The translations under genes were made by a program, and so were the position numbers. A stretch of DNA of 64,000 nucleotides from Oscillospiraceae bacterium (GTDB lineage Bacteria; Bacillota; Clostridia; Oscillospirales; Ruminococcaceae): the NCBI GenBank assembly GCA_017847875.1, contig JAGASN010000020.1:1-64000 (forward strand), read 5' to 3'. This document shows positions 2,637 through 35,510 of the stretch, one piece after another. Every line of letters begins with the position of its first letter. The first letter of the stretch is position 1. Below the pieces are notes generated by a model. It had not been told where the DNA came from. It searched no databases and saw nothing but the letters and a program-made list of their open reading frames with translations.

Positions 2637-2867
2637 ATGAGAAAAACAGAGTTAAGAGAACTCTACAAAATGATGTTTCCGGACTATCCGGACATCGTAA
2701 CCGTTGCTCAGCTTCAGAAGATGCTGGGCATCAGCAGACACTTGGCATACGACCTTATCAATGACGGATATATCTCCGGCATCAAAATTGGGAACGCCTT
2801 TAAGATTCCGAAGGTCAATGTCATCAACTACGTTATGGAGGAAGGAGGTGAGAAAAATGCAGGTTGA
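2637..2867 (+). CDS. Excisionase/MerR-like helix-turn-helix protein
   Basis: A 76-residue basic protein with one HTH (residues ~21-65: VTVAQLQKMLGISRHLAYDLINDGYISGIKIG). Its recognition-helix and wing layout is that of the excisionase/HTH_17 family. Such proteins usually direct excision of an integrated element or regulate its first operon. The ATG at 2637 follows AAGGAGG. The stop overlaps the start of the RepA-like gene by 11 bases, so translation is likely coupled. Position at the head of the replication/mobilisation operon, with the integrase at its end, supports a role as element regulator or recombination directionality factor. Which of the two cannot be told from sequence. Confidence 0.75.
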   Translation: MRKTELRELYKMMFPDYPDIVTVAQLQKMLGISRHLAYDLINDGYISGIKIGNAFKIPKVNVINYVMEEGGEKNAG

Positions 2868-3882
2868 AAAACTAAGAACCGTTGATGCAGACACCTTGTT
2901 ATCAACGCCGCTTCGAAAGACTTTATTCATTGTGGAGGGCTTGATACCGCAAGGATTGAGCGTGTTATCGGGCGCAAGCAAAATCGGCAAAAGCTGGTTG
3001 ATGTTGTGGCTCGGGATGCAAGTGGCACGGGGAAATCCTGTGTGGGAATTTGAAACCCATAAGTGCGACGTGCTCTATTTGTGCTTAGAAGATACTCACG
3101 TTCGCATTCAAAACCGCTTGTATCAGCTCACGGATGAAGCACCTGCCGAGCTTAGAATTGCCACCACAAGCTATCAGATTGGCAACGGCTTAGAGCAGCA
3201 GATTGAAGATTATCTGTCCGACTTTCCTAACACAAAGCTTGTGATCATCGACACCTTTCAGAAGGTTCGTGACTCTCGAAACACCCTTGGCAAAAGCGGA
3301 ATGTATGCGGGAGATTACGACGATATCACAGCGCTGAAAAACATTTCGGACAAGTTCGGGATAGCGGTGATTGTAGTCCATCACGTTCGCAAAATGAAAG
3401 ATGCAAACGACCCGTTCAACGAGGTTACGGGTTCAACGGGTATCACGGGAGCCGCCGATACTAGCTTTATTTTGAAGCGAAGTCGCTCAAGCGAGATGGG
3501 AACGCTCCTTGCAACGGGGCGAGATATTGAGTATCAGGAGCTTACCTTAAAGTTCGATAACGGTACGCATTTATGGGAGCTTGTGGAGCGAAAGAACGCC
3601 GATGATCTTCACCGAGAAGAGATTCCCGACTTTCTTTTTCGGCTCGTTCAGTTCATAGCCTTACGCAGAACTTGGCAAGGCACAGCAAGTCAGTTACTTA
3701 CCCAAATGAACGAAACCGAAGCTACGGCAAACGTAGTAACAAAGCTACTTGCGAGGTTTTCGTCAGAGGTTTTGATGCCGCAGGGCATTGAATACCGAAC
3801 AAAACGCACAGGGACAAGCCGCCTGATTCGGCTTGAAATGAGTGACAGCGGTGACGGAAATGACGGCGAGATCTCTATATAG
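2857..3882 (+). CDS. RepA-like AAA ATPase/helicase (AAA_25)
   Basis: A 341-residue protein starting at ATG 2857 behind GGAGGTGAG. The frame stays open upstream to 2704, but that part overlaps the HTH gene and has no ribosome binding site. A P-loop (GASKIGKS) lies at residues 39-46 and Walker B (KLVIIDTFQ) near residue 127. The VVHHVRK and 'GSTGITGAADTSFIL' segments are typical of RecA-fold plasmid RepA helicases (RSF1010 RepA/AAA_25). In integrative elements this family is thought to help replication after excision. A winged-helix-like C-terminus (residues ~255-330) may bind DNA. It is translationally coupled to the HTH gene and followed by the mobilisation genes. Confidence 0.8.
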   Translation: MQVEKLRTVDADTLLSTPLRKTLFIVEGLIPQGLSVLSGASKIGKSWLMLWLGMQVARGNPVWEFETHKCDVLYLCLEDTHVRIQNRLYQLTDEAPAELRIATTSYQIGNGLEQQIEDYLSDFPNTKLVIIDTFQKVRDSRNTLGKSGMYAGDYDDITALKNISDKFGIAVIVVHHVRKMKDANDPFNEVTGSTGITGAADTSFILKRSRSSEMGTLLATGRDIEYQELTLKFDNGTHLWELVERKNADDLHREEIPDFLFRLVQFIALRRTWQGTASQLLTQMNETEATANVVTKLLARFSSEVLMPQGIEYRTKRTGTSRLIRLEMSDSGDGNDGEISI

Positions 3883-4315: not shown

Positions 4316-4654
4316 ATGAACAAAAGAATTAAGAAACAGTTTTGGCTCTCACCCCAAGAGGCGGCAGAGCTTAAAAGAAAAGCAGAGCTTGCAGGAATAT
4401 CGGAAACAGCAGTGATTCGTTTGCTGATCCGTGGCTATGAGCCGAGAGAAAAACCGGACGGCAATTTCTATGAAGCGATGCGAAAACTGTCTGCCATCGG
4501 CAACAACATCAATCAGCTTGCGGTGAAAGCACACGCACTTGGATTTATTGATGCGCCGATGTTGAAAGCAGAAGCTTTGCGATGGCATCAGTTTCAAGCT
4601 GATGTGGAAGCCACCTTCCTGCGACCACAGCAAAGCAATCTCAAATGGAAATAA
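4316..4654 (+). CDS. MobC-family plasmid mobilisation relaxosome protein
   Basis: A 112-residue basic protein. The N-terminal ribbon-helix-helix (KKQFWLSPQEAAELKRKAELAGISETAVIRLLIRGYEP) is followed by the conserved MobC segment 'FYEAMRKLSAIGNNINQLAVKAHALG'. This segment is diagnostic of PF05713-type MobC proteins, which assist a relaxase in opening DNA at oriT. GGAAAGGA lies before ATG 4316. In related elements a relaxase gene normally follows MobC directly. Here a ParB-like gene follows instead, so the element would need a relaxase from elsewhere or use an unusual one. Confidence in the family is high; functionality is unknown. Confidence 0.8.
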   Translation: MNKRIKKQFWLSPQEAAELKRKAELAGISETAVIRLLIRGYEPREKPDGNFYEAMRKLSAIGNNINQLAVKAHALGFIDAPMLKAEALRWHQFQADVEATFLRPQQSNLKWK

Positions 4655-4671
4655 GAAAGGAATGATGCACA

Positions 4672-5589
4672 ATGACAAAACGAAAAACGGATTTTACTCT
4701 ACCGTCTTACGATGATATTTTTACTACACAAGAAATGCGGGACGATGCAAAGCTTGAGAAAGTGCAAAACATACCTCTTGCCGAGCTTCACCCATTCAAA
4801 GACCATCCTTTTAAGATTTTGAACAACGAGGAAATGGAGCGAATGATTGAAAGTATCCGCAAAGTGGGTGCAATCACTCCGGCACTTGCCAGACCGATGC
4901 CTGATGGTGGCTATGAATTGATCTCAGGGCACAGACGGCTTGCGGCGTGTCAGGTGTTGGGCTTGGAAACAATGCCCGTCATCGTTCGTGAGATGTCCGA
5001 TGATGAAGCTGTGATCGCAATGGTAGATGCCAACCTACAAAGAGAAACGATCTTGCCCAGCGAAAAAGCCTTTGCTTACAAGATGAAGCTTGATGCAATA
5101 AAACATCAGGGTAAAGCTTCTATGCAAGTTGCAGAGAAGTTGCTTAGCGTAGAAATTGTTGCTGATGATGCAGGAGAAAGTAAAGACCAAGTTCGAAGAT
5201 ATATCCGCTTAACCTACTTGATTCCCGAATTGCTTACGATGGTGGATGAAAACAAAATTGCTTTCAGTCCCGCTGTAGAGATCTCCTACTTGGAGCACTC
5301 AGAACAGCTCGTGTTGCTCGATGCAATGAATCTCAACGACTGCACACCATCCCACGCACAGAGTATACGACTTAAGAAACTATCGCAGGAAGGTTTGCTC
5401 GACCAAAACGCAATTTATGAAATTATGTCGGAGGAAAAGCCAAATCAGCAAGAGCAGATCAAGCTCAAGCGTGATGACCTTCGAAAATACTTTCCGCCGA
5501 ATTATACGGACGAGCAGATCAAAAAAGATATTGTCAAAGGTTTGGAACTGTTGAAACGACAGCGAGACCGAAACCGAGACGCACGCTGA
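4672..5589 (+). CDS. ParB-like partition/nuclease-domain protein
   Basis: A 305-residue protein. The ParB N-terminal domain spans residues ~35-130, with 'IPLAELHPFKDHPFKI' and the nucleotide-binding box 'LISGHRRLAACQVLGLETMPVIV'. The 'LQRETILPSEKAFAYKMKLDAIKHQG' region and a central HTH (KDQVRRYIRLTYLIPELL) also fit the ParB family. No ParA partner is present in the window. Orphan ParB-like proteins are common in integrative mobilisable elements, where they may aid maintenance or regulate element genes. ATG 4672 follows an AAGAAAGGA site, 17 bases after the MobC stop, so it is probably in the same operon. The C-terminus is charged and probably flexible. Confidence 0.8.
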   Translation: MTKRKTDFTLPSYDDIFTTQEMRDDAKLEKVQNIPLAELHPFKDHPFKILNNEEMERMIESIRKVGAITPALARPMPDGGYELISGHRRLAACQVLGLETMPVIVREMSDDEAVIAMVDANLQRETILPSEKAFAYKMKLDAIKHQGKASMQVAEKLLSVEIVADDAGESKDQVRRYIRLTYLIPELLTMVDENKIAFSPAVEISYLEHSEQLVLLDAMNLNDCTPSHAQSIRLKKLSQEGLLDQNAIYEIMSEEKPNQQEQIKLKRDDLRKYFPPNYTDEQIKKDIVKGLELLKRQRDRNRDAR

Positions 5590-5715: not shown

Positions 5716-6915
5716 ATGGTAGCAGGACATCTGCAAATTAAAAAAGGTTATTATTACGCCGTACTCAGTTGGAATAGCGGCGAAAAAAGAAAAACAAAAT
5801 GGGTTCCCCTCGGACTACCCGAAAAGGGAAACAAGCGCAAAGCTCAGGTGGAACTTTCAAAGATCCGAAGCGAGTTTATCGTTCCCGTCGAAGAAGGCGA
5901 TCTAAGTGCCGATATGCTGTTCGCCGATTATCTGCTCGAATGGCTTGACATTGCAAAGGGACGTTTGGCAATCGCTACTTACAGTTCATACGTGGGACTA
6001 ATTAAAAGTTCTATTGAGCCGTACTTCCGTCAGAAGAAGCTGACACTGCGTGAACTGGAAGCAAGGCACGTTCAAAGCTTCTATTCCGAAAAGCTCAAGG
6101 TCGTTAAGCCCAATACAGTCATCCACTACCACGCAATTATTCACTCGGCTCTCAAATACGCTGTGAAAACAGATATGATCATTCAAAATGTAGCGGATAA
6201 AGTTGACCGACCAAAGAAAAACGATTTTCAGCCGGTGTTCTTAACAGCTGAGGAAGCGCAGAAAATGTTTGAAGCCCTCAAGGGCACAAAGTTAGAGCTT
6301 CCCGTTTTGGTAGCGGCATTTTATGGACTGCGCCGTGGTGAGGTGTTGGGACTGAAGTGGGATGCCATTGATTTTGAACGAGGAACAATTTCCATCAAGA
6401 GAACCGTAACCTCTATCAATCTGGACGGCAAGTATCAGGAAATTGAAAAGGAATCAGCAAAGACAAAGTCGAGTTTAAGAACACTTCCGCTGATCGGCAG
6501 TTTTAAAGAATATTTTATGCAAGTCAAGGAAGCGCAGGAGCTGAACAAAAAGGTCTGCGGAAATTGCTACAACTATCAGTACGACGGGTATGTGTTCGTG
6601 GATGAAATGGGAGAAAGAATGAAGGCTAACTATCTAACCACACGTTTCCCCGAACTTCTCGAAAAGAAAGGACTGCGCCGTATGCGATTTCACGATCTTC
6701 GTCATAGCTGTGCTTCGCTGCTTCTTGCAAACGGCGTACCCCTCAAGCACATTCAGGAGTGGCTGGGTCACTCGGATTTTTCTACGACAGCAAACATTTA
6801 TGCGCATTTGGATTATAGTGCAAAGATCACTTCGGCTCAGGCAATGGAAAGCGGATTGCAATTGCCCGAAGCAGGTGGCTTCACAAGCCGTTGGAGCGGT
6901 GAAGTTCCAAATTAG
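5716..6915 (+). CDS. Tyrosine-type site-specific integrase
   Basis: A 399-residue protein of the phage/ICE integrase family. It has an N-terminal arm-binding AP2-like segment (residues 5-40), a SAM-like core-binding domain (~70-165) and a C-terminal catalytic domain (~175-375). Catalytic residues are visible: Arg in YGLRRGEVLGL (~205), His-x-x-Arg in FHDLRHSCASLL (~326-329), His in WLGHSD (~351) and the nucleophile Tyr in NIYAHLD (~361). The ATG at 5716 follows TTAGGAGGAAAA. It lies at the element's edge, convergent with and 94 bases from the 3' end of an intact tRNA-Ser, so integration into that tRNA is the natural inference. The region around 7009-7099 would then contain one attachment site. 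Confidence 0.93.
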   Translation: MVAGHLQIKKGYYYAVLSWNSGEKRKTKWVPLGLPEKGNKRKAQVELSKIRSEFIVPVEEGDLSADMLFADYLLEWLDIAKGRLAIATYSSYVGLIKSSIEPYFRQKKLTLRELEARHVQSFYSEKLKVVKPNTVIHYHAIIHSALKYAVKTDMIIQNVADKVDRPKKNDFQPVFLTAEEAQKMFEALKGTKLELPVLVAAFYGLRRGEVLGLKWDAIDFERGTISIKRTVTSINLDGKYQEIEKESAKTKSSLRTLPLIGSFKEYFMQVKEAQELNKKVCGNCYNYQYDGYVFVDEMGERMKANYLTTRFPELLEKKGLRRMRFHDLRHSCASLLLANGVPLKHIQEWLGHSDFSTTANIYAHLDYSAKITSAQAMESGLQLPEAGGFTSRWSGEVPN

Positions 6916-6970: not shown

Positions 6971-7005
6971 AAAAAGCCTGAAATCGGCTTGATTACAGGC
7001 TTTTT
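6971..7005. terminator. Bidirectional terminator between integrase and tRNA-Ser
   Basis: Stem AAAAAGCCTG/CAGGCTTTTT with a 15-base loop. The A/T flanks can serve both the plus-strand integrase and the minus-strand tRNA. Confidence 0.75.
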
Positions 7006-7008
7006 CGA

Positions 7009-7099
7009 TGGCGGAGAGTGAGGGATTCGAACCCTCGTGCGATTTCACTCGCAACTCGATTTCGAGTCGAGCTCGTTATGACCACTTCGATAACTCTCC
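7009..7099 (-). tRNA. tRNA-Ser, anticodon CGA
   Basis: On the minus strand the acceptor arms are GGAGAGT/ACTCTCC, the anticodon stem is CTCGA/TCGAG around loop CTCGAAA (anticodon CGA, reading UCG), and a long class-II variable arm is typical of tRNA-Ser. The T arm is GAGGG-TTCGAAT-CCCTC, the discriminator is G, and CCA is encoded. It is intact and so probably functional. Its 3' end faces the integrase, making it the likely attachment site. The D-arm/variable region differs from the partial copies at 7250, 7434 and 7628. Confidence 0.93.
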
Positions 7100-7249
7100 G
7101 TGTATTTTCTGAACTGTAGTTTTTCTCAATCAAAATATATTTGGAGAGAACTACAGGAGAGAACAGGAAAAAATATTCGATTTTAATGTTTTGAAACCTC
7201 AATAAAATCAAGGTTTTTCTACGGACGAAACTGCCAAATGGTCTTAAAT

Positions 7250-7289
7250 TTTCGAGTCAGCCCCGTTATGACCACTTCGATAACCCTCC
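7250..7289 (-). pseudogene. tRNA-Ser 5' half, copy 2
   Basis: Minus strand GGAGGGTTATCGAAGTGG through CTCGAAA. It is nearly identical to the intact tRNA-Ser 5' half (7099 downward) and diverges abruptly after the anticodon loop. Confidence 0.75.
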
Positions 7290-7433
7290 GTGTATATTTC
7301 CATCCGCTTTTAACTCAAAAATTTTTTGGAGAGAAAAGCAGGAGAGAACACTGAAAAATATTCGATTTTTGATTTTGAAAACCCTTTAAAATCAAGGATT
7401 TCCGGCGGACGAAACGACCAAGCAGCCGTAAAA

Positions 7434-7472
7434 TTTCGAGTGCTGCACCTTCGACCACTCGGACAACTCTCC
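7434..7472 (-). pseudogene. tRNA-Ser 5' half, copy 3 (different allele)
   Basis: Minus strand GGAGAGTTGTCCGAGTGG through CTCGAAA. The D-arm sequence differs from the intact gene and looks like a more standard tRNA-Ser. It therefore probably derives from a distinct tRNA-Ser source rather than from simple local duplication. Confidence 0.7.
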
Positions 7473-7482
7473 GTATATAAAG

Positions 7483-7511
7483 ATTTTACAAACTTATCTT
7501 CTTTCAGTCAA
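7483..7511 (-). promoter_or_regulatory. Promoter in front of tRNA-Ser half copy 3
   Basis: TTGACT (7511-7506), 17-base spacer and TAAAAT (7488-7483), placed ~10 bases before the pseudo-tRNA 5' end. This is the spacing of a real tRNA promoter. The equivalent boxes before the other copies are weaker. Confidence 0.6.
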
Positions 7512-7627
7512 GAGGACTTTTGGAAAGAAGAACCGGAACGAAGAAAAAACACAGCCGTTTTTTCGTTTCTAGAAAATTTCATCAAAAAGCCAAACCTTCT
7601 GGACGAAATTACCAGATAATGGAAATC

Positions 7628-7667
7628 TTTCGAGTCGTTCTCGTTACGACCACTTCGATACATCTCC
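7628..7667 (-). pseudogene. tRNA-Ser 5' half, copy 4 (most degraded)
   Basis: Minus strand GGAGATGTATCGAAGTGG through CTCGAAA. This is the outermost copy, with acceptor mismatches and a poorly conserved following segment. Confidence 0.65.
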
Positions 7668-7748
7668 ATATTAAGTTTGCCCGAATATCATAACACGATT
7701 TTGCCCGAAGGTCAAGAAATATTGCGATAAAAAGCCGCATTTTCGCTA

Positions 7749-7820: not shown

Positions 7821-9158
7821 ATGGATGACCCTGGAAGTCCTATGGCCATTATCTTGGTATTAGTTCTTATTTTTATTAATGCATTTTTTGCAATGAGCGA
7901 AATTGCGGTAATTTCGCTTAACGATGCAAAACTCCGCAAAGATGCGGAAGAAGGCAGCAGAAAAGCAAGAATACTCACAAAACTTGTTGACCAGCCGAAT
8001 AATTTTCTTGCAACCATTCAGGTCGCGATAACCCTTTCCGGATTTTTGTCTTCGGCGGTTGCGGCGGACGTTTATGCGGACCCCCTTGCGGAATTTCTTT
8101 TGAAATATATTCCGATAGATGCGGATATCGTTCACGGCGGAACGGTTTTTGTGCTCACTCTTTTGCTTTCCTATGTTTCTCTCGTTCTCGGCGAACTTGT
8201 TCCGAAGCGCATTGCAATGCATTACCCGGAAAAAATATCTTATGCCATAGCGGGAATTCTTTCCTTCTGCTATAAAGCTTTCAAGCCTTTTGTATATCTT
8301 CTCAGCGGTTCGACCAACGTTGTTCTCCGCCTTTTCGGAATCAACCCCAACGAAGAACCCGAGGAAGCCACCGAGGAAAACATTCGTATGATGCTCGACG
8401 TTGCCGATGAAAAAGGCACCATTGAAGAAAGCGAAAAAGAGATGATAAACAACATCTTTGAATTCGATGACAGAAGCGTCGGCGAAATTATGACCCACAG
8501 AAAAGACCTTACCGCAATCGAAATGGAAACCCCCATAAGCGAAGCGGTGGATCTTGCAATTTCCGACGGATATTCAAGAATGCCGGTTTATGAAGAAACC
8601 ATCGATAATATTAAGGGCGTTGTCTTTGCCAAAGACCTTCTTACTCTTATCGGGGATACAAATCTTGACGGAAGAAAAGTTGCGGATTTTATCCGCCCCG
8701 TAAACTTTATTCCGGAATCCAACAGCTGCCGCGAAGCTTTTATGGAATTCCAGCAGAAAAAGATCCAGGCGGCAATCGTTGTTGATGAATACGGAGGCAC
8801 CGCCGGTCTTGTTTCAATGGAAGACCTTATCGAATCCGTAATGGGCAATATCCAGGACGAATACGATAACGAGGAAGAGGAAATAAGCGCAATCGACGAA
8901 GATAACTTCGATTTTGAAGGAACGGTTCTTCTCGATGATATCGAAGAACTTCTTGATATCTCCGTTGATGAGGACGCGGATTACGACACCCTTTCCGGTC
9001 TTATAATGGATCTCCTCGGAAGAATTCCGGAAGAAGACGAACACCCTGTTGTTGAATTCCAGGGAGTTGAATTCACAGTTGTTCACGTTGAGGAACACAG
9101 AATTGCAAAAGTTCACGCAAAAATTCTCCCGAAGGAAAACGAAGAAGACGAAGAATAA
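7821..9158 (+). CDS. CNNM/CorC-type transporter with CBS pair (hemolysin-family protein)
   Basis: A 445-residue inner-membrane protein. Residues ~1-195 form the DUF21/CNNM transmembrane domain, with hydrophobic helices at ~8-28, ~65-90, ~100-125 and ~135-160. Residues ~205-335 hold two CBS motifs (FDDRSVGEIMTHRKDL... and ...AAIVVDEYGGTAGLVSMEDLIESVMG). The C-terminal ~85 residues form the CorC_HlyC domain. Proteins of this layout export or regulate Mg2+ (and possibly Co2+); the old name hemolysin is historical. The ATG follows TTGGAGGAAA. It is monocistronic, with its own promoter and a strong terminator at 9162. The acidic C-terminal tail ENEEDEE is family-typical. Confidence 0.9.
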   Translation: MDDPGSPMAIILVLVLIFINAFFAMSEIAVISLNDAKLRKDAEEGSRKARILTKLVDQPNNFLATIQVAITLSGFLSSAVAADVYADPLAEFLLKYIPIDADIVHGGTVFVLTLLLSYVSLVLGELVPKRIAMHYPEKISYAIAGILSFCYKAFKPFVYLLSGSTNVVLRLFGINPNEEPEEATEENIRMMLDVADEKGTIEESEKEMINNIFEFDDRSVGEIMTHRKDLTAIEMETPISEAVDLAISDGYSRMPVYEETIDNIKGVVFAKDLLTLIGDTNLDGRKVADFIRPVNFIPESNSCREAFMEFQQKKIQAAIVVDEYGGTAGLVSMEDLIESVMGNIQDEYDNEEEEISAIDEDNFDFEGTVLLDDIEELLDISVDEDADYDTLSGLIMDLLGRIPEEDEHPVVEFQGVEFTVVHVEEHRIAKVHAKILPKENEEDEE

Positions 9159-35268: not shown

Positions 35269-35299
35269 ACCTTTTGAACTTAATAAAAAGCAATTTTTA

Positions 35300-35510
35300 C
35301 GGCCGCAATTTTTGCGGTAAAAAGGAACGCGGTTAAAATCCGCGGCTGCTCCCTCAGCTGTAATTGCCGACGGAAAAGGCATTTTTATCCCACTGCTTTT
35401 TTGAAGCGGGAAGGGCGCTTTTTTCGGAAGAAGCATAAGCCAGAAGACTTGCCGTAAAAACTTCGCGCGGTAATTCATTGGGAAAGGATGAATATCAAGC
35501 AACCCCTGTT
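35300..35510 (+). ncRNA. Cobalamin riboswitch
   Basis: Conserved blocks of the B12 riboswitch are present in order: GGAACGCGGTTAAAATCCGC with GGCTGCTCCC (35324-35353), CAGCTGTAA right after, and AAGCCAGAAGACTTGCC (35437-35453), the near-invariant segment. A following terminator (35518) implies transcriptional control: with bound cobalamin the downstream ECF operon should be switched off. The second base pair of the B12 box reads GGTT rather than the more usual GGTG. The 5' and 3' limits are approximate. Confidence 0.9.

Follow-up and report, generated by a model that had tools for sequence, protein, structure and literature searches.

Crossover by tyrosine integrases in the anticodon loop of tRNA genes is well known, and the islands that integrate there normally carry a fragment that restores the gene (PMC4383910, PMC5704250); a 3' fragment was found in 3760 of the 3919 islands in Islander (PMC4383910). 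The closest described systems are found among actinobacteriophages such as Fionnbharth, Gaia and Mollymur, for which tRNA-dependent lysogeny was reported (Guerrero-Bustamante and Hatfull 2024, PMC10865867). Their common core is short (8-17 bp), the target tRNA is not rebuilt, and the phage carries a complete tRNA of the same isotype. In Fionnbharth, this tRNA has a strong promoter of its own and overlaps with another gene; as a speculation, the authors suggested that the carried tRNA might serve a second copy as its bacterial attachment site (attB) (PMC10865867). Prophage Lj965 of Lactobacillus johnsonii is cited there as another case in which the tRNA is not rebuilt and a cognate tRNA is encoded, and that citation mentions no stacking. 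Here we describe a tRNA-Ser(CGA) locus in a stretch of 64,000 nucleotides (contig JAGASN010000020.1, assembly GCA_017847875.1; hereafter the window) from an Oscillospiraceae bacterium, in which three displaced 5' halves of tRNA-Ser(CGA) are stacked beside an intact gene and a convergent tyrosine integrase gene. We consider it very probable that the array was built up as one tRNA-Ser(CGA) gene was the target of site-specific integration three times in succession, each time by an element with a complete replacement tRNA.

Stacked tRNA-Ser(CGA) halves and empty sites

Read along the minus strand from 7720 to 7000, the locus consists of the native tRNA promoter (TTGACC-17-TATGAT, 7687-7715), displaced 5' half A (7628-7667), spacer y1 (7473-7627), half B (7434-7472), spacer y2 (7290-7433), half C (7250-7289), spacer y3 (7100-7249), the intact tRNA-Ser(CGA) (7009-7099), a hairpin in the gap between tRNA and integrase that is terminator-like on either strand (6971-7005), and the convergent integrase gene (5716-6915, plus strand). 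The first-pass annotation had placed the three halves exactly, all are from tRNA-Ser(CGA), and the start-to-start distances between the four units are 190, 183 and 195 bp. The common cut after the anticodon loop that it had noticed is likewise present in all four units, where tRNA homology stops at the seven anticodon-loop bases CTCGAAA (7634-7628 in half A, 7440-7434 in half B, 7256-7250 in half C and 7066-7060 in the intact gene). It had, on the other hand, assigned a different D-arm allele and a promoter to the third copy; both belong to the middle unit, half B (7472-7434, TGTCCGAGTGGTCGAAGG), behind a promoter-like site in y1 at 7511-7483. ARAGORN and Rfam recognise a tRNA only in the innermost unit of the window.

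Comparison with relatives showed what the site looks like before integration. In congeners that include G001, G003, G007, G011 and G013, a single tRNA-Ser(CGA) lies behind the CNNM gene and promoter that are also present in the window. The corresponding chromosomal flank in the window is a CNNM/CorC gene (7821-9158, plus strand; Pfam), conserved upstream of the native tRNA in congeners, as the promoter is. The 5' half of the native gene in the empty-site congeners (including G001, G003, G007 and G011) is identical to half A and is joined to its own 3' half. Half A is thus the displaced native half of the genus, and B and C are what is left of earlier replacement genes, which we read as the tRNAs of the first and the second element; the half B allele is present as an intact tRNA in G027 and G057. 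The intact gene of the window, whose allele is unlike the native gene of the genus, is read as the replacement gene of the latest element, and its anticodon loop as the next attB. Intermediate states were also found: G014 has had one event, showing half A, a spacer and then an unrelated intact tRNA-Ser(CGA), and G004 has had two, the first of which has half A, y1 and half B in common with the window at 95% identity. Unit number ranges from 0 to 4 among relatives. Two checks proposed at first pass were run on these genomes: same-genus genomes without the integrase hold a single intact gene and no array, and the anticodon loop is the junction in every case.

The stacked-half pattern was found in 40 of the 397 genomes of the family (~10%) and in 27 of its 126 genera, far more often than by chance, as a reversed control pattern gave 1 match. 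Among GTDB genomes, at least 119 stretches show it as well, with listed titles that are nearly all from Clostridia. A cyanobacterial match (L180) was rejected as a scar, because it is a tandem pair of tRNA genes that are both complete. Over all arrays, tRNA-Ser(CGA) was recognised in 124 of 133 innermost units, versus a tRNA in 1 of 216 displaced units. The deepest stacks contain four displaced halves, for example in Anaerotignum lactatifermentans DSM 14214, and stacks are also present in the cultured isolates Clostridium sporosphaeroides DSM 1294 and Caproiciproducens galactitolivorans BS-1.

Travelling spacers, far ends and attachment arms

We compared 215 distinct half-spacer-half units. 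Among the 72 pairs of spacers with at least 95% identity, 65 had identical following halves and only 9 had identical preceding halves, against a random background of about 0.75 for following and preceding halves alike. When the preceding halves differed, the 3' half of the carried gene was also common to the pair in 14 of 22 cases, versus a background of 1%. Near-identical spacers sit behind different 5' halves in different genomes, and the switch falls exactly at CTCGAAA. The spacer and the complete tRNA are therefore one travelling unit and the preceding half is the host's, excluding a model in which only a 5' half is brought. A near-identical spacer with its tRNA was found in Oscillibacter, Caproiciproducens and Sinanaerobacter, suggesting recent transfer. 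Separately, L010 and L165 belong to a short-spacer class (~39 bp) in which no arm repeats were seen; their spacer and the tRNA after it are identical although the halves in front differ, and hence these too are element-carried.

The opposite ends of the elements were searched for up to 40-60 kb downstream of arrays on long contigs, and were located in G202, G314, G169 and G281, giving spans of 21.6, 20.5, 30.3 and 23.5 kb, respectively. At each far end, non-tRNA sequence runs into CTCGAAA, which is followed by the 3' half of a tRNA that lacks its 5' half. In all four cases this 3' half pairs with the genome's own outermost displaced 5' half, matching 7/7 in the acceptor stem and 5/5 in the anticodon stem. 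Among the 12 pairings between genomes, an equally good fit was seen only in the two that combine G169 with G281, which have a common allele, and none was perfect across different alleles. Joining the flanks by script restored a complete tRNA-Ser(CGA) in the four genomes, and the core common to host and element is 7-12 bp long. The joined G314 site aligns across the junction with the natural empty site of G465, from the same genus, with 89% identity over 482 bases. In G102, another member of the G314 genus, the upstream flank and the displaced half are the same, the spacer that comes next is different, and the matching 3' half is on another contig; it carries another element in the site used in G314. 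The first-pass suggestion of a cassette-like array of minimal attachment units is not supported: wherever complete elements could be traced, each unit is part of an element of 20-30 kb, the body of which is located downstream of the intact tRNA.

We read the window spacers y1, y2 and y3 as the left attachment arms of the first, second and latest elements. All three contain paired 8-bp repeats of a TTC type exactly 13 bp apart (7542-7535 and 7529-7522 in y1, 7348-7341 and 7335-7328 in y2, and TTCTCTCC at 7163-7156 and 7150-7143 in y3). The TCGAAT and TTCTCTCC boxes in the spacers had been described at first pass as T-loop-like; they do not stem from a tRNA 3' half but are these paired repeats. 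In complete elements, words of the y-arm type recur in the last 350 bp ahead of the far core, with ATCTCTCCAAAAT in G202, three copies of TTTCTCGCA in G314, a TTCTAA-type word in G169 and ATCTTGCATTTTTC in G257. For four of 5 elements, the excess was reached in 0-5 of 1000 dinucleotide shuffles. The repeats are best read as arm-type sites of the integrase flanking the core on both sides. As the boxes resemble T-loop and acceptor 3' strands, we had also considered whether the units might be tRNA-like RNAs with a long variable arm, and dropped this when the spacers proved to be element-owned and the same boxes turned up in the opposite arm.

A contiguous order of right arm (x), CTCGAAA, y, tRNA-Ser(CGA) and integrase was found in the human faecal contig MT836946.1 (L298), which was deposited as a phage; this is the layout of the element attachment site (attP) expected of a circle, or of a head-to-tail tandem. 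Another faecal contig, MT840019.1 (L296), shows x, CTCGAAA, a 3' half and the integrase, as expected of an element nested in the tRNA of another element. Such elements or arrays are contained in four human faecal contigs filed as "Bacteriophage sp." (L295-L298; MT836101.1, MT840019.1, MT839038.1 and MT836946.1), which may be mislabelled or may be packaged elements.

The integrase of the window (Pfam Phage_integrase and Phage_int_SAM_3) has homologues beside other arrays. Of the 76 arrays with at least 1.3 kb of sequence downstream, 57 had a homologue there, always antisense to the tRNA (57/57), and most of these genes end 90-320 bp from the core. At control loci with a single-copy tRNA-Ser(CGA), short integrase remnants were found at only 2 of 22, one of which (L018) also has a spacer-like stretch upstream. 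The integrase at 5716-6915 probably made the latest event.

Integration model and its alternatives

The proposed element would be a circle composed of a right arm x, the core CTCGAAA, a left arm y of about 150 bp, a complete tRNA-Ser(CGA), a convergent tyrosine integrase gene and the body. On recombination, the host promoter and the host 5' half would stay upstream, followed by y and the complete tRNA of the element, and the host 3' half would be moved to the far end. Because the core is only about 7-12 bp, namely the anticodon loop, the target tRNA would not be rebuilt from its parts, and the carried tRNA would supply the lost gene product. As the carried tRNA has the same anticodon loop, it would in turn be the target for the next element. 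Serial events would therefore stack 5' halves in steps of about 190 bp beside the gene, with the oldest outermost, while element bodies and 3' halves would accumulate downstream; it is because the elements bring a complete tRNA that 5' halves, not 3' ends, pile up beside the gene. One reading offered at first pass was of scars of repeated integration, left by elements bringing or displacing a 5' half. The repeated integration, the anticodon-loop crossover and the displacement stand, whereas what the elements bring is a complete tRNA and not a half.

Displaced 5' halves beside an intact gene could also be left by a mirror image of usual tRNA integration, in which a tiny element or cassette of about 190 bp brings a new 5' half only and re-uses the host 3' half, and the spacers, at only about 150 bp, would suit such a small unit. 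Against this stand the pairing distal 3' halves lying 20-30 kb away, which refute it for G202, G314, G169 and G281; moreover, the spacer is transmitted together with the intact gene's 3' half, and the integrase and the body are downstream of the intact gene. We regard this explanation as highly improbable. Tandem duplication of a tRNA gene with an inserted segment, the copies then decaying, had likewise been raised at first pass, and the identity of 76-77% between y2 and y3 over long stretches would fit such a duplication. The units are not mutual copies, however: the spacer covaries with the following tRNA half and not with the preceding one, near-identical spacers lie behind different 5' halves with the change exactly at CTCGAAA, the outermost half is the native allele while the inner halves are alleles from elsewhere, and the empty-site congeners have one copy. 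Had duplication built the array, the units of one array should be each other's closest kin over half and spacer alike, which was not seen, and its chance of being correct is in our view negligible.

Instead of being scars, the units might have a function as tRNA-like RNAs that regulate tRNA-Ser or act as its decoys, given that they are widespread, that the 5' halves are conserved and that they are probably transcribed from the native promoter. Against this, only 1 of the 216 displaced units is recognised as a tRNA, and unit number varies among relatives, from 0 to 4. Conservation of the displaced halves is accounted for because each was a real tRNA until it was displaced, and we give this reading an extremely small chance.

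Several observations weigh against serial replacement of the tRNA gene. No displaced 3' half was found in the window's own assembly by searching for the native flank, the exact acceptor end or a loose core-to-T-loop pattern; the contig starts at window base 1, which is inside the element, and hence the far ends of the window elements are not seen. In G044 (L040/L041) a lone 3' half with the core lies 42.9 kb downstream, and its acceptor sequence CGCCTCC fits neither of the local 5' halves; no partner for it was found. Some genomes, such as G044 and G049, carry displaced halves without an integrase, so that serial replacement requires decay or deletion of elements there, and we read these arrays as decayed. 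In G281, 43 of 1000 shuffles reached the excess of arm repeats, a weak signal, and most arrays were gathered with a pattern that fixes the spacing, making the spacing distribution partly a product of the search.

Expression, carriers and comparison with known systems

A high promoter score was found upstream of 50% of the outermost halves (2% in shuffles) versus 2% of 188 spacers (2% in shuffles). The score is a simple consensus match that weaker promoters would escape, and some spacers do hold a promoter-like site, for example y1 of the window. Because the spacers mostly have no recognisable promoter, the carried tRNA is probably read through from the native promoter, and in the window the promoter at 7687-7715 probably drives the whole array in this way. 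The carried tRNA would thus be expressed mainly by read-through from the resident tRNA promoter followed by maturation by RNase P, and would functionally replace the lost tRNA; tRNA-Ser(UGA) may also read the UCG codon in part. We tentatively propose that the elements capture a promoter, the carried tRNA being silent in the free circle and turned on only behind a host tRNA promoter, so that correct integration is rewarded, the host becomes dependent on the element and each newcomer inherits that dependence; we judge this proposal somewhat more likely to fail than to hold. If it is true, one chromosomal tRNA gene has been replaced repeatedly by horizontally acquired alleles, leaving an ordered record.

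Judging from their gene content, the carriers look like integrative mobilizable elements. Besides the integrase, the element in the window encodes on the plus strand a ParB_N protein (4672-5589), a NikA-like/MobC mobilisation protein (4316-4654) and a RepA-like AAA_25 ATPase (2704-3882), all by Pfam, the last with a counterpart in the G314 element; its relaxase is not within the available sequence. MobA-type relaxases are encoded in the G202 and G314 elements, the former also encoding a type I restriction-modification system and the latter the AAA_25 protein. Among the element proteins scanned, which were a subset of the genes, neither phage structural families nor complete conjugation machinery was found, and plasmid relatives of the integrase are only 43% identical to it. 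Small, similar proteins are encoded at the far end beside the right arm in G202, G314, G281 and L298 (including L135:128-730 and L125:17901-18485); the G202 copy has a helix-turn-helix domain, and these are candidate excisionase-like proteins. Elsewhere in the window, Rfam recognises a cobalamin riboswitch (RF00174, 111 bits) at 35283-35470 on the plus strand.

The same tRNA-Ser gene may also have received insertions of other kinds. In several congeners (L005, L006, L007 and L024), the native tRNA-Ser is followed by repeats of the form GGTGTGGATGAGAACCCACCGGGTGAGTACC...GGAAATCCCACCATCTCCGCCA that end in the tRNA 3' end, about three of them in tandem in L007; these may have been left by elements of another type or form a repeat family derived from a tRNA. 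Between the promoter and the array, L002, L020, L024, L011, L030 and G281 contain decayed 5' fragments cut in the D-arm (GGAGATGTATCGAAGTGG, GC-rich inserts and then ...CTTCGATA or GGACATAACGGGGC), which look like a second kind of insertion at this gene. G059 (L051) carries a conventional anticodon-loop island at this gene; 2.8 kb downstream of the tRNA, the 3' half is repeated exactly.

In the literature we searched, which covered few subscription journals, no earlier description of tRNA-replacing integration in Clostridia was found. The elements share with tRNA-dependent lysogeny a tyrosine integrase acting at a host tRNA gene, a short core, a target that is not rebuilt and a complete carried tRNA. 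Unlike the actinobacteriophages, they reside in Clostridia, target tRNA-Ser(CGA) and are apparently not phages, having mobilisation genes; the carried tRNA lies about 150 bp from the core and mostly has no recognisable promoter, unlike that of Fionnbharth. Serial integration into the carried tRNA is directly visible in Clostridia as stacks, unlike in the actinobacteriophages. tRNA-dependent integration thereby extends from actinobacteriophages to apparent mobilizable elements of Clostridia, where it is common. Prophage Lj965, as far as its citation in PMC10865867 describes it, is similar in having a Firmicute carrier, a target tRNA that is not rebuilt and a carried cognate tRNA.

The elements resemble integrative and mobilizable elements of Firmicutes (PMC5704250) in combining an integrase with mobilisation proteins and cargo such as type I restriction-modification, but here the target is destroyed and replaced. 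Like the islands in Islander, they have a tyrosine integrase, an anticodon-loop crossover and an end marked by a displaced tRNA fragment; unlike those islands, they supply the whole gene, displace both fragments, and have an attP of the form x-core-y in which y is not tRNA. A 5' fragment about 190 bp from the intact gene would presumably fail the 2-kb length filter of Islander, and with the 5' scar so close and the far 3' scar belonging to a different allele, these elements should escape standard island finders, whereas a search for the double scar yields exact element ends. A chromosomal tRNA gene can be replaced repeatedly by mobile elements, and the stacked halves give the order in which the elements arrived at one site.
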